Source: Bacteroidota bacterium
GTDB taxonomy: Bacteria; Bacteroidota; Bacteroidia; UBA8524
DNA length: 64,000 nt
Direction of reading: 5' to 3'
Assembly (NCBI GenBank): GCA_008933805.1
Contig: WBUH01000005.1
Span: 1 to 64,000, forward strand
A program made the translations under genes and the position numbers. How positions within the stretch are numbered: the first letter of the stretch is position 1; each line of letters begins with the position of its first letter. The notes under the pieces were generated by a model. The model was not told where the DNA came from. It saw only the letters and a list, made by a program, of their open reading frames with translations, and did no database searches. Of the stretch, positions 27,696 through 34,720 are shown one piece after another.

Positions 27696-27926
27696 CTAAA
27701 AGCCCCCGTACTTAATGGTTACTATTAAACCTATGTAAGCCAAAACTATCAACATGGCAATTATAAAGACTGTTATAAGGGTAATACGCAACCAAAACAG
27801 TTTTTGCGGATGTATATCTTTACCTAAAGTAAGGTACTTATAACCTGCAAACAAGAACAACGCTATTATGAGTCCTATAAATACCATTGTATAAACAATG
27901 GATGCGTATGGGTTAACAATTTCCAT
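27696..27926 (-). CDS. Small two-helix membrane protein, function unknown
   Basis: A 76-residue protein with two hydrophobic helices (about residues 9-27 and 45-70), separated by a short charged loop with KDIHPQK. I recognise no family. It is the last gene of the operon headed at 30831, six bases after the stop of the lipoprotein gene, and ends eight bases from the convergent exported orphan gene. Being at the end of the Thg1/kinase operon may indicate a shared role, but nothing in the sequence shows it. Confidence 0.7.
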   Translation of the reverse strand: MEIVNPYASIVYTMVFIGLIIALFLFAGYKYLTLGKDIHPQKLFWLRITLITVFIIAMLIVLAYIGLIVTIKYGGF

Positions 27927-27932
27927 TGTGTA

Positions 27933-28688
27933 TTAATTAGAAAAGTAAGTAAAATAGCTGTTGGGCTTGCGATACGGGTATGCATAATCAACGTAAGTTG
28001 CATCCGCATCTTCAACCAAAACTGGCATCCCCTCGTATTGCTTTTTAGCCATTATTACTGATTGAGATACCCAAAATTGGTGATCCACATAAAACTCCTC
28101 TGAGAAATCATGCTTAAGGGATAGCGTTAGAAAGTTTCTGAAACTAACCGGACTGTTTTCTTTGGTAAATGCCACCTCATGCACCTTTGTTGTCCCCCTT
28201 TTTTTATAGCTTTTACTTACTACTTTCTCATTCGTGCCTTTGGCGTGGATAGGAGGACTGATATTGAATTTAGACATTGTAACAGCTGTACGAGGCGGGA
28301 TAAAAGTTATCTGCTCCTGTTGGGTCATTACGCCTTGGGTATAGTATTTTCTTTGTGAATACGCAGATAACCACGAAATATTATAGTCGGCCGTGGTTTG
28401 TGTGTTGATTATTATATCGCCGTCCCAATAATCCTGTTTTTGCATACCACGGATAAACGCGCTACGTTTCCAGTCTATGTACAAGGGTACATTTGATTTG
28501 TTAAACACAATAAACGATAGTTGTCCGTTTTTGCCATAGGTGTTATACACTATTTCAAACGTATCGTTGCTATAGCGCAGTAAGGTATCTTGTTGGGCGA
28601 AATCAGCGTTTACGGTTAATACCTGCACCTGATAGCTGCAAGCCGACCAAACCAGTGCGGCAGTGAATGCTAATAATAGGTTTTTCAT
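27933..28688 (-). CDS. Predicted lipoprotein, function unknown
   Basis: A 251-residue protein with a lipoprotein signal; lipobox ALVWSAC puts the lipidated Cys at about residue 17. The body is beta-rich (FEIVYNTYGKNGQLSFIVFNKSNVPLYIDW) and has no named domain that I recognise. Its ATG overlaps the stop of the Thg1-like gene (ATGA, 28685-28688), so translation is probably coupled. A cell-envelope protein in an operon with RNA-processing enzymes is unexpected. Confidence 0.75.
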   Translation of the reverse strand: MKNLLLAFTAALVWSACSYQVQVLTVNADFAQQDTLLRYSNDTFEIVYNTYGKNGQLSFIVFNKSNVPLYIDWKRSAFIRGMQKQDYWDGDIIINTQTTADYNISWLSAYSQRKYYTQGVMTQQEQITFIPPRTAVTMSKFNISPPIHAKGTNEKVVSKSYKKRGTTKVHEVAFTKENSPVSFRNFLTLSLKHDFSEEFYVDHQFWVSQSVIMAKKQYEGMPVLVEDADATYVDYAYPYRKPNSYFTYFSN

Positions 28689-29449
28689 TTTTGCGCAGTT
28701 AAAATACTCCCTATAAATTTATTATAGTCGTCCTTCATTGGCAGCTCAAAATCAACTTTAATCCTTTTCTTAATCGAGACCACTTTGTCCTTAGTTTTAG
28801 GATTATAACCTTCCTTTTCAAATTCCTCCCAATACAATCCAGTGCCTCTTTTTTGCCAATTTGGTAGTGTATTGAAGTTTATTCCCCCATCAAACAACAG
28901 CTCATTCTTTTGGGCGGTTGTTAGTCTCTCAATTTGCTTCGTTGCTTCGTTTTTTGTTTTGTTTTGCCCGCGCAACATCCAATAGCAGTGAGCATTAAGT
29001 GCATTCCTATGCGCATCCTCATGTCTCCATCTAAAATAATCTATCACTAGTTGCTCATTGGGAAACTCGCACACCCTACAATCAAAAGTTGCCAGTGTAT
29101 TCATCAGTAAAGAGAATTTTGCACTTGCTTCACCAGCCAATATAGAGTTTATTTTTCGATGTTTCCTGCCAAAAGATGCGTCCCCGAGGTCAAACAATAA
29201 TGATATTTCATCGCTTTGTGTATAGCCATATATCACTTTAAACCCGCTCTCCATAAGGTGTTGAACGGTAGCAACCATTGCGTCCCTAAACCTACTGTCA
29301 AAAGGGGCGTCTAGTTCAAGAGTTTCTTTGGTTAATTTGGTAAATCCCCTGCCATCAATCCTTGCAACAATATACATATCCGGCAATACACATACATCGT
29401 GAGCGGTTTCATATACCCGCATCTTTTTATCTAAATCATCAAACTTCAT
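28685..29449 (-). CDS. Thg1-like tRNA 3'-5' nucleotidyltransferase
   Basis: A 254-residue member of the Thg1 family, the only known polymerases that add nucleotides in the 3'-5' direction. In eukaryotes Thg1 adds G-1 to tRNA-His; bacterial Thg1-like proteins are known to repair or edit truncated tRNA 5' ends. Metal ligands are visible in VARIDGRGFTKL (Asp about 32) and GYTQSDEISLLF (Asp80, Glu81), and the DAHRNALNAHCYWML segment (His147) corresponds to the conserved HxxxLxN region. Length is full. The gene overlaps the upstream kinase by 11 bp and the downstream lipoprotein by 4 bp. Because most bacteria encode G-1 in tRNA-His, a repair role is more likely than G-1 addition. Confidence 0.9.
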   Translation of the reverse strand: MKFDDLDKKMRVYETAHDVCVLPDMYIVARIDGRGFTKLTKETLELDAPFDSRFRDAMVATVQHLMESGFKVIYGYTQSDEISLLFDLGDASFGRKHRKINSILAGEASAKFSLLMNTLATFDCRVCEFPNEQLVIDYFRWRHEDAHRNALNAHCYWMLRGQNKTKNEATKQIERLTTAQKNELLFDGGINFNTLPNWQKRGTGLYWEEFEKEGYNPKTKDKVVSIKKRIKVDFELPMKDDYNKFIGSILTAQK

Positions 29450-29885
29450 TACTCCAATCCGATATAATAAATTCGTTATTCTTTAATTCAACGTAATATA
29501 ATTCATCAAACCCCTCATCAAATGAAGGCGTCTCAAGCTTTGAATATGTGCCCCGCAAACCTGCGTCCGGTATCCGTTGCTTCCCCTCTCTGGTAGCATT
29601 TCTTTGTAAAGCATCAACTAATTTTGATTGAAAGTAATACCCTACCACTCTGTAGGATTTTTGCTTAGCCCTGCCTATATATAGCTCTCTCTCCTTTACT
29701 GTAGGGTTTGTATTATCTACTACAAAAGGCATTTGTGTACTTAAACAATACTCTAACAATAAGTTTTCCCTGTTTCTTGTTTTGAGCAAATCAAGCGATA
29801 TACGTAAATGTGTATGGAAAAATCTTTCTTTGAAGAAAGATGATTTTCCTGTTGCCTGAAGACCGCAAAATAGTATTGCCTGCAT
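29439..29885 (-). CDS. Small P-loop kinase, polynucleotide-kinase-like
   Basis: A 148-residue P-loop protein. Walker A is GLQATGKSS (residues 8-16). An acceptor-side Asp lies in RISLDLLKTRN (about 29-39), VVDNTNPTVKERELYI (about 56-70) is the motif of the Pnkp/AAA_33 kinase group, and the lid arginines are in LQRNATREGKQRIP. It resembles the 5'-kinase domain of polynucleotide kinases, without a phosphatase or ligase domain. I use the ATG at 29885 (MQAILF), which leaves a 1-base gap to the upstream stop; a TTG four codons earlier is less likely. It overlaps the Thg1-like gene by 11 bp, strong evidence for a shared pathway. The RNA 5'-OH kinase role is inferred. Confidence 0.85.
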   Translation of the reverse strand: MQAILFCGLQATGKSSFFKERFFHTHLRISLDLLKTRNRENLLLEYCLSTQMPFVVDNTNPTVKERELYIGRAKQKSYRVVGYYFQSKLVDALQRNATREGKQRIPDAGLRGTYSKLETPSFDEGFDELYYVELKNNEFIISDWSNEV

Positions 29886-29886
29886 A

Positions 29887-30831
29887 TCAATAGCCAAAAT
29901 AGAAATCTTCGGCCAGTTTTAGTTCATAGCTGCTGATAAAATTCGACAAATGAGGGATAATAGGGTATTCTTTTTTCCAGCGGTACTTCTTCCATCGGTA
30001 TTTGTCTACCCATTCTTTTACAGGATAATCGCGATAAGTGACTTTTTTTAGCAAGCCGTTGCACTTGTACTTCATTGCCCACGTTTCGTACTTCTCTACG
30101 TTTTCGTGTTTGCGGTTGGCTTGCAACATCCGCCCCTTTTTATCATAGTCAAAAGCCATCACAATTCTTTTGCCTGCATTGCCAATAAACACCGTATCAA
30201 TAAGTCCTTGCGCGTTTCGGTGGTAGTTTTCAGTATACTCCCGTTCTGGTAGTGCATTAAACTGTGAATAGTAGTAGGCAAACCTCCGTCCGGTAATATT
30301 CCCCGCAGGGTCGCGGTAAAAAGTAACACGCTCAAAACAGGTAGTATTTTCGGGCAATTCAACGCCCTTTTCAGCAGGCTTTTGATTGACAATCTTACAC
30401 ACCGTACCCAAATACACCTTCTCAACGCTTTGTAACAGCTTATTTTGATAGATGTAGGTAGTAGTCAGCCCGTAATCGCTACGATGGCTTATCAGGGTAT
30501 CATCCCCTTCCCAACCGTACAAATAATTATAAATATGCCGCACGCCTGTTGCCAGTTGTAACGATACCTCGCGGGTTACATGACCTGTTATACTGTCATA
30601 AAAAAACTCCGATTTGGTAAGCCATCCGTCGTTGGCAATTACCACATAGCGACGTCCGACGGTATCTATTCTAAATCCCAAGCCCCATCCGGGGGTTTCA
30701 TTCTGTCCGCCGTTGCTGTAGTTGTATTTTACCAACGCCTCCAAATAAGGGCCATTGTAGGCTGCTTGTCCCATGCAGCACACCGTAAACAAACTAAAAA
30801 TAAGCAGGTAAAAGGTCTTTGTCCTGTTCAT
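29887..30831 (-). CDS. Exported protein with YD/RHS-like strands, function unknown
   Basis: A 314-residue protein with a signal peptide (about 1-21, with VCCMGQAA at its end; a Cys-Cys pair leaves lipidation possible). The body contains repeated beta-hairpin-like segments such as YRDPAGNITGRRFAYYYSQ, IVMAFDYDKKGRMLQANRK and MKYKCNGLLKKVTYRDY, like single YD or RHS units common in Bacteroidota proteins. It is the first gene of the operon that includes the kinase and Thg1-like genes. I do not recognise a specific family. The repeat array 30884-31945 sits immediately upstream, where its promoter should be. Confidence 0.72.
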   Translation of the reverse strand: MNRTKTFYLLIFSLFTVCCMGQAAYNGPYLEALVKYNYSNGGQNETPGWGLGFRIDTVGRRYVVIANDGWLTKSEFFYDSITGHVTREVSLQLATGVRHIYNYLYGWEGDDTLISHRSDYGLTTTYIYQNKLLQSVEKVYLGTVCKIVNQKPAEKGVELPENTTCFERVTFYRDPAGNITGRRFAYYYSQFNALPEREYTENYHRNAQGLIDTVFIGNAGKRIVMAFDYDKKGRMLQANRKHENVEKYETWAMKYKCNGLLKKVTYRDYPVKEWVDKYRWKKYRWKKEYPIIPHLSNFISSYELKLAEDFYFGY

Positions 30832-30883: not shown

Positions 30884-31945
30884 CCCTGAATATAAAATTC
30901 AGGGTTTTGCTAATACCATCCCCAATGGTTTAAAACCATTCGGCCTGCACCCTATCAATAGAGGCGGGTTTCATACCCGTCGTGATACCCGTTTGGTTGC
31001 GACAGGTATAAAACCTGCCGCTATTGAGAAAGCGCAGCGCAAGAAGCATCTTTTTTTGTTTTTGCCACGAAGTCGCAAAGTCACAAAGTTCCCTAATTTA
31101 TATCTGCTTCGTGTCTTTGCGCCTTTGCAGCATAAGATTAAAGCGCAGCGGCCGGAATGGTTTAATACCATTCGGGGCTAACCATATCAATAGAGGCGGG
31201 TTTTATACCCGTCGGGAATGCCAACCTTAATACCCGTTTGATTGCGGCAGGTATAAAACCTGTCGCTATTGAGAAAGCGCAGCGCAAGAAGCATCTTTTT
31301 TTGTTTTTGCCTCGAAGTCGCAAAGTCACAAAGTTCCCTAATTTATATCTGCTTCGTGTCTTTGCGCCTTTGCAGCATAAGATTAAAGCGCAGCGGCCGG
31401 AATGGTTTAATACCATTCGGGGCTAACCATATCAATAGAGGCGGGTTTTATACCCGTCGGGAATGCCAACCTTAATACCCGTTTGATTGCGGCAGGTATA
31501 AAACCTGTCGCTATTGAGAAAGCGCAGCGCAAGAAGCATCTTTTTTTGTTTTTGCCACGAAGTCGCAAAGTTCCCTAATTTATATCTGCTTCGTGTCTTA
31601 GTGCCTTTGCGGCATAGGAAAGAAATAACAAATGGTTTAAAACCATTCGGGCTGCACCCTATCAATAGAGACGGGTTTTATACCCGTCGTAATACCCGCC
31701 TTAATGCCCGTTTGGTTGCGACAGGTATAAAACCAGTCGCTATTGAGAAAGCGCAGAGCAAGAAGCATCTTTTTTTTGCCACGAAGTCGCAAAGTCACAA
31801 AGCTCCCTAATTTATATCTGCTTCGTGTCTTAGTGCCTTTGCGGCATAAGAATAAAGCGCAGCGGCCGGAATGGTTTAAAACCATTCGGGACGAGCCTCT
31901 ATCAATAGAGGCAGGTTTTATACCCGTCGTGATGCCCGTCGTTTA
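30884..31945. repeat. Large array of composite hairpin cassettes, class B, about four units
   Basis: This fills the 1.18-kb gap between divergent genes. GAGAAAGCGCAGCGCAAGAA recurs at 31026, 31271 and 31516, with a slightly changed copy at 31745, giving periods 245, 245 and 229. Each unit carries a GACAGGTATAAAACCTG hairpin, a block with CCACGAAGTCGCAAAG and its partial inverse CTTCGTGTCTTTGCGCC, a GAATGGTTTAA(A/T)ACCATTC hairpin and a GGCGGGTTTTATACCCGTC hairpin. A CCCTGAATATAAAATTCAGG hairpin opens the array. The second and third units are almost identical, so duplication is recent. Open frames across it repeat with the units and are not genes. Confidence 0.93.
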
Positions 31946-34159: not shown

Positions 34160-34720
34160 ATTACCTACCTGCAAAGGACTTAAGTCCTTTGCAAGTAGGT
34201 AATTTTGATAGCATGGGGTTTCAACCCCTTGTTTTTAACGCCGAATGGTTTTATACCATTCGGGGGTAACCCCACTAATAACGGCGGGCTTTATGCCCGT
34301 CGGGGAAACGGAATGCCGTCAGGGTTGCGACAGGTATAAAACCTGTCGCTATTGAGAGCGTGCAGTACAAGAAGTATCTTTTTTGTTTTTGGCACGAAGC
34401 CACAAAGCTCCCTAATTCATATCCGTTTTGCGCCTTAGTGCCTTCGTGGCATAAGAAAGAAACCCCAGCATTCTGGATGGTTTAATACCATTCGGGGCGA
34501 GCTCTATTAATAGAGGCGGGCTTTATGCCCGTCGGGGAAACGGAATGCCGTCGGAGTACGACAGGTATAAAACCTGTCGCTATTGAGAGCGTGCAGCACA
34601 AGAAGCATCTTTTTTGTTTTTGCCACGAAGTCGCAAAGCTCCCTAATTCATATCCGTTTTGCGTCTTCGTGCCTTCGTGGTAAAAGAAACAACGTCGGGC
34701 TTTATGCCCGTCGTGAACGT
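34160..34720. repeat. Mixed repeat block: one class A hairpin pair and two class B units
   Basis: Most of the 638-bp gap before the transporter gene. It begins with a 44-nt ATTACC..CTTAAG..GGTAAT hairpin (34160-34203) and a GGGGTTTCAACCCC hairpin (34215-34228). Two class B units with period about 231 follow (GAGAGCGTGCAG at 34354 and 34585), each with GAATGG..CCATTC type, GGCGGGCTTTATGCCCGTC and GACAGGTATAAAACCTGTC hairpins and the CACGAAG..CACAAAG or CACGAAGTCGCAAAG block. This is the only site where class A and class B elements are contiguous. No gene is seen. Confidence 0.9.

Follow-up and report, generated by a model that had tools for sequence, protein, structure and literature searches.

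The question raised by this locus is whether five closely packed genes form an operon for the repair of RNA 5' ends, as the first-pass annotation had proposed, and which of them could take part in such a process. In the window (the whole stretch of 64,000 nucleotides of Bacteroidota DNA that was analysed), positions 27696-30831 carry five ORFs on the minus strand (30831-29887, 29885-29439, 29449-28685, 28688-27933 and 27926-27696), of which the second and third overlap by 11 nt (29439-29449; ATGAAGTTTGA) and the third and fourth by 4 nt (28685-28688), with gaps of 1 nt and 6 nt at the remaining junctions; this packing is present in the sequence just as it had been described. The overlap of 11 nt joins the 3' end of a gene for a 148-aa P-loop kinase resembling polynucleotide kinases (PNK; 29439..29885) to the start of a gene for a 254-aa Thg1-like protein (TLP; 28685..29449), a member of the 3'-5' RNA polymerase family. 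The pair is preceded by a gene for a 314-aa protein (29887..30831) with a weak, sub-threshold similarity to DUF4595 (5e-5, below the Pfam cut-off), and followed by genes for a 251-aa protein (27933..28688), to which no Pfam family could be assigned over the cut-off, and a hydrophobic protein of 76 aa (27696..27926), for which neither Pfam nor NCBIfam gave a family over the cut-off.

Identity of the kinase and of the polymerase

The reading frame of the kinase begins with the ATG at 29885, which yields the 148-aa product and is backed by the aligned homologues; the TTG at 29897, chosen by the ORF lister, finds no support in them. The protein contains the Walker A sequence GLQATGKSS and the VVDNTN motif, both previously pointed out, and it matches the AAA_33 family at 3.5e-9, over the Pfam cut-off, as well as the kinase part of the NCBIfam PNK-3'Pase model (1.8e-7). 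Profile comparisons with proteins of known structure place mammalian PNKP first (3.7e-19), followed by the PNK of C. thermocellum (8.5e-9) and, more weakly, by L-seryl-tRNA(Sec) kinase (about 5e-6) and T4 PNK (6e-4). The AlphaFold model (pLDDT 93) agrees with this picture: in Foldseek searches its TMq reaches 0.84-0.86 for the best chains of mammalian PNKP and about 0.78 for the C. thermocellum kinase, and polynucleotide kinases are closer to it than seryl-tRNA kinase. Twelve positions are invariant in 76 homologues (G8, G13, K14, F17, D32, T59, R66, N96, R99, P120, E124 and F126), among which D32 and R66 correspond in the HMMER alignment to the Asp of the VNRD motif and to the Arg of the PSR motif of PNKP, respectively. 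Thus, the predicted structure has the polynucleotide-kinase fold, and with it come the Walker A motif, the catalytic Asp and the lid Arg of PNK-type enzymes. The kinase domains of PNKP, T4 Pnkp and C. thermocellum PNK share with it the fold and the positions of the P-loop, of the catalytic Asp and of the lid Arg; unlike them, however, the window protein is a stand-alone kinase of 148 aa, with neither a phosphatase nor a ligase domain.

The product of the third gene matches the Pfam families Thg1 (8.8e-32) and Thg1C (1.1e-16); 5axk, itself a TLP, is both its best match among PDB sequences (1.4e-31) and the top Foldseek match of its AlphaFold model (TMq 0.84; pLDDT 93.6). The metal ligands D32, D80 and E81, earlier described as intact, are indeed present and are invariant in 83 homologues. 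The HINNLYN motif, which separates the eukaryotic tRNA-His-specific Thg1 from TLP, is absent, as judged from the alignment to human Thg1 (3otb), DCHINNLYNTVFWAL versus DAHRNALNAHCYWML. Sequence comparison and the structural model both identify the predicted polymerase as one of the TLP type. It shares the fold, the metal ligands and the lack of HINNLYN with the bacterial and archaeal TLPs of known structure (BtTLP, 4kgk, and M. acetivorans TLP, 5axk), and is nearer to the archaeal 5axk (113.2 bits) than to BtTLP (76.9 bits). Two TLPs of Bacteroidota that appear BtTLP-like by eye (in genomes G431 and G044) have no such kinase alongside. Characterised TLPs favour 5'-truncated tRNAs, and templated 3'-5' extension of such tRNAs has been demonstrated for homologues of the protein (PMC6471195; PMC3701042); the in vivo role and substrates of the bacterial TLPs are still unsettled (PMC6471195).

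Conservation of the pair and status of the flanking genes

A scan of GTDB genomes returned 424 candidate stretches encoding relatives, and the best 80 of these (L015-L094) were used; as these are the sequences closest to the window protein, the fractions obtained from them should be read for this set and not for Thg1 proteins at large. Among the best 80 of 424, the kinase is found at 75 loci, and at 73 it lies upstream of Thg1 on the same strand and abuts or overlaps it. Conserved adjacency in other genomes, which the first-pass annotation had named as a check of its proposal, is therefore found far beyond chance. In two of these 80 loci the kinase is 560 and 2675 nt away from Thg1, and in five it is missing (L038, L066, L076, L081 and L085). 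An overlap of exactly 11 nt recurs at 63 of the best 80 of 424 loci, and at 68/80 when all kinase-bearing loci measured are taken together; its sequence is near-constant (ATGAAATTTGA and close variants), which suggests that the two genes are translationally coupled. The hosts of the adjacent pair span about nine named phyla (Bacteroidota, Pseudomonadota, Myxococcota, Cyanobacteriota, Bacillota, Acidobacteriota, Spirochaetota, Lentisphaerota and Thermodesulfobacteriota) and include cultured genera, e.g. Chitinophaga, Mucilaginibacter and Corallococcus. Most branches of the Thg1 tree follow the phylum of the host; there are exceptions, for instance a roseobacterial bin placed within Bacteroidota, and these out-of-phylum placements may also reflect mis-binned contigs. 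The distance matrices of the kinase and Thg1 are correlated (r = 0.66 for 73 pairs; the best of 1000 permutations gave 0.17), which may in part be due to shared species history.

The association was also approached from the side of the kinase. In 395 sampled Bacteroidota genomes there are four kinase matches above 200 bits (205-246 bits), all of them beside Thg1, and every other match scores 34 bits or less. Thg1 itself occurs in five of these 395 genomes, the fifth of which (G431) contains another type of TLP with RtcB as the adjacent gene, and in 3 of 100 relatives. The pairing is thus near-obligatory among the nearest relatives and extends over many bacterial phyla. There are exceptions: in one relative (G005; L009 8851-9198) the kinase frame is disrupted and its P-loop region is gone next to an intact Thg1, possibly owing to an assembly error, and this broken copy together with the five kinase-less loci indicates that a TLP can persist without a neighbouring kinase. 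Other arrangements were also encountered. On the Thiodictyon plasmid pTs417 (L142 6016-7774) Thg1 overlaps a gene for an RlaP nucleotidyltransferase, with a BREX gene nearby and the kinase absent; at the G431 locus (L013 102-2122) the different TLP type directly adjoins RtcB and a metallophosphoesterase is encoded nearby; and plasmid pSCAT of Streptantibioticus cattleyicolor (L143 3764-4462) contains a kinase-family match of 91 bits with no Thg1 within 4 kb, possibly an orphan kinase in Actinomycetota.

The PNK fold also takes in DNA kinases, and PNKP, the closest solved relative of the kinase, is a DNA repair enzyme; searches of the open-access literature gave no assay of the kinase. It could be argued that its substrate is a different one, for example the 5'-OH end of DNA, a nucleoside or some group bound to tRNA, and that its tie to Thg1 stems from regulation or history and not from sequential catalysis, given that both L-seryl-tRNA(Sec) kinase and the DNA-repair PNKP, which have the same fold, are among its matches. 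We regard this as unlikely, because the closest structures are those of polynucleotide kinases, ahead of seryl-tRNA kinase, and because an almost exclusive pairing, in conserved phase, with a 5'-phosphate-using enzyme is best explained by substrate supply.

Of the proposed five-gene RNA-repair operon, the two-gene kinase-Thg1 module stands and the larger unit does not. Clustering of all ORFs from the best 80 of 424 loci revealed no additional gene shared by more than close relatives; the other large clusters seem to consist of reading frames antisense to the pair or shadowing it. No homologues of the upstream 314-aa and downstream 251-aa genes were found at the other Thg1 loci examined, and four genomes of the same family contain a single match of 23% to the downstream gene. 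A functional unit of five genes was rejected on account of this failure of the flanking genes to recur. That all five belong to one operon with a common function, as their overlaps and gaps of 1-6 nt might imply, is in our opinion highly improbable, for the first and fourth genes do not accompany Thg1 elsewhere, and the base composition of the pair (GC 0.37-0.39, GC3 0.32-0.38) departs from that of the window (GC 0.43). More probably, a kinase-Thg1 module sits among genes of the host, with which it may be transcribed. The lower GC content and the absence of Thg1 from four searched genomes of the same family are consistent with horizontal acquisition, but they do not prove it. A phage origin was not upheld: in 50,697 phage records there is no close kinase-Thg1 pair and the kinase matches two distant records, and two phage Thg1 regions that we inspected lack such a kinase. 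One IMG/VR contig (L095) bears the pair, and it may represent bacterial or prophage DNA.

The DNA around the pair was searched for additional features. No structured RNA was detected near it at Rfam gathering scores, and the defence-system models of PADLOC gave weak matches only at the locus. A 245-bp repeat is present at 30985-31936 in four tandem copies (87% matches) with palindrome-like segments; BLAST-type searches find 54 full or partial matches to it in the genome, with additional long copies at 34325-34675 and 73197-73652 of the same contig, and it has no match in Rfam.

Putative mechanism and the other RNA-repair genes of the genome

The pair is intact in the window and its two active sites are preserved, and the two genes stay together in hosts of different phyla. 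We consider it probable that it constitutes a translationally coupled two-gene module for the repair of RNA 5' ends, in which the action of the kinase is followed by 3'-5' extension by the TLP. The small PNK-type kinase would phosphorylate 5'-OH ends of RNA; the TLP, by analogy to the chemistry of its homologues, would use ATP or GTP to activate the 5'-phosphate thus formed, and would extend the activated end 3'-5' along the opposite strand. The most likely outcome would be the restoration of the acceptor stem of 5'-damaged tRNAs.

A role in the maturation or maintenance of tRNA-His through the addition of G-1 would be in line with membership in the Thg1 family and with the ability of bacterial and archaeal TLPs to add G-1 opposite C73 in vitro (PMC6471195). 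The tRNA-His of this genome, however, already encodes G-1 opposite C73, together with CCA (base assignment by eye), which would make the addition superfluous and favours a role in repair; the lack of HINNLYN from the TLP and of Thg1 from almost all relatives likewise speaks against such a role, to which we give very little credence.

The absence of ligase and phosphatase genes, which the first-pass annotation took as a sign of a minimal end-repair system, holds at the locus and fails for the genome as a whole. RtcB is encoded on contig C3 and an ATP-dependent RNA ligase on contig C10, and on contig C4 (G000:C4:146156-148051; L150 2657-4552) a ligase of the RNA_lig_T4_1 family is directly followed by a PNKP-type kinase-HAD phosphatase, the two forming a classic healing-and-sealing pair. 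The notion of a minimal system is weakened by these genes, and the kinase-TLP locus is not the sole end-healing system of the cell; with another kinase-phosphatase and three RNA ligases available, the need for a second 5' kinase is not evident. An alternative is that the pair serves as a front end for ligation, with the TLP converting the kinase-made 5'-phosphate into App- or Gpp-RNA for a separate RNA ligase, or as a cap, and with polymerisation being secondary. This alternative was already raised by Anantharaman et al. 2010 (PMC2904730), and it draws on the presence of RtcB and of two ATP-dependent RNA ligases in the genome, as well as on the proximity of Hen1 (L033, L052 and L141), RlaP (L011, L141 and L142) or RtcB (L058 and L090) to some related loci; on a Deinococcus plasmid, for instance, the kinase-Thg1 pair is followed by Hen1 and two RlaP nucleotidyltransferases. 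These neighbours, which also count in favour of a role in RNA repair as such, are scattered cases, counted as raw occurrences; a ligase is never a conserved neighbour of the pair in the best 80 of 424 loci, one of the ligases of the genome already has its own kinase-phosphatase alongside, and the polymerase metal ligands are invariant. We therefore find the ligation scheme rather unlikely, and continue to favour 3'-5' extension of kinase-treated ends. It is even conceivable, and we suggest this tentatively, that the near-obligate module represents a dedicated, ligase-independent route for rebuilding RNA 5' ends across phyla, which, separate from the cell's RtcB and ligase/PNKP systems, channels 5'-OH ends into 3'-5' resynthesis. 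The pairing predicts that the damage carries a 5'-OH, and a near-obligatory, overlapping kinase that also occurs in cultured genera makes the repair of RNA 5' ends by TLPs directly accessible to experiment.

Relation to known systems

A conserved gene neighbourhood of Thg1 and a polynucleotide kinase, with the kinase supplying the 5'-phosphate for Thg1, was described by Anantharaman, Iyer & Aravind 2010 (PMC2904730), and the window pair matches it in both families, in their adjacency and in the proposed logic. The participation of a PNK-like kinase and a Thg1-like polymerase in RNA 5'-end repair is thus supported by the conserved adjacency, the fold and the active-site residues, but its novelty is not: the observation holds up and the reasoning is sound, yet the idea has been published before. 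The present analysis adds the count showing how nearly obligatory the pairing is, the conserved overlap of 11 nt, and the ligase-based repair genes located elsewhere in this genome. The MACRO and RNA-ligase genes that occur in a subset of the Thg1-PNK neighbourhoods (PMC2904730) are absent from the five ORFs at 27696-30831; being a feature of some members, they do not define the family. With the bacterial Pnkp1-Rnl-Hen1 RNA repair complex (PMC4411300) the locus would have in common the healing of RNA ends, and Hen1 lies near the three related loci named above; unlike that complex, it encodes no Rnl, Hen1 or phosphatase, and none of its five genes matches them. The two systems would also differ in their chemistry, which is ligation in Pnkp1-Rnl-Hen1 (PMC4411300) and, as proposed here, 3'-5' extension in the kinase-TLP module.
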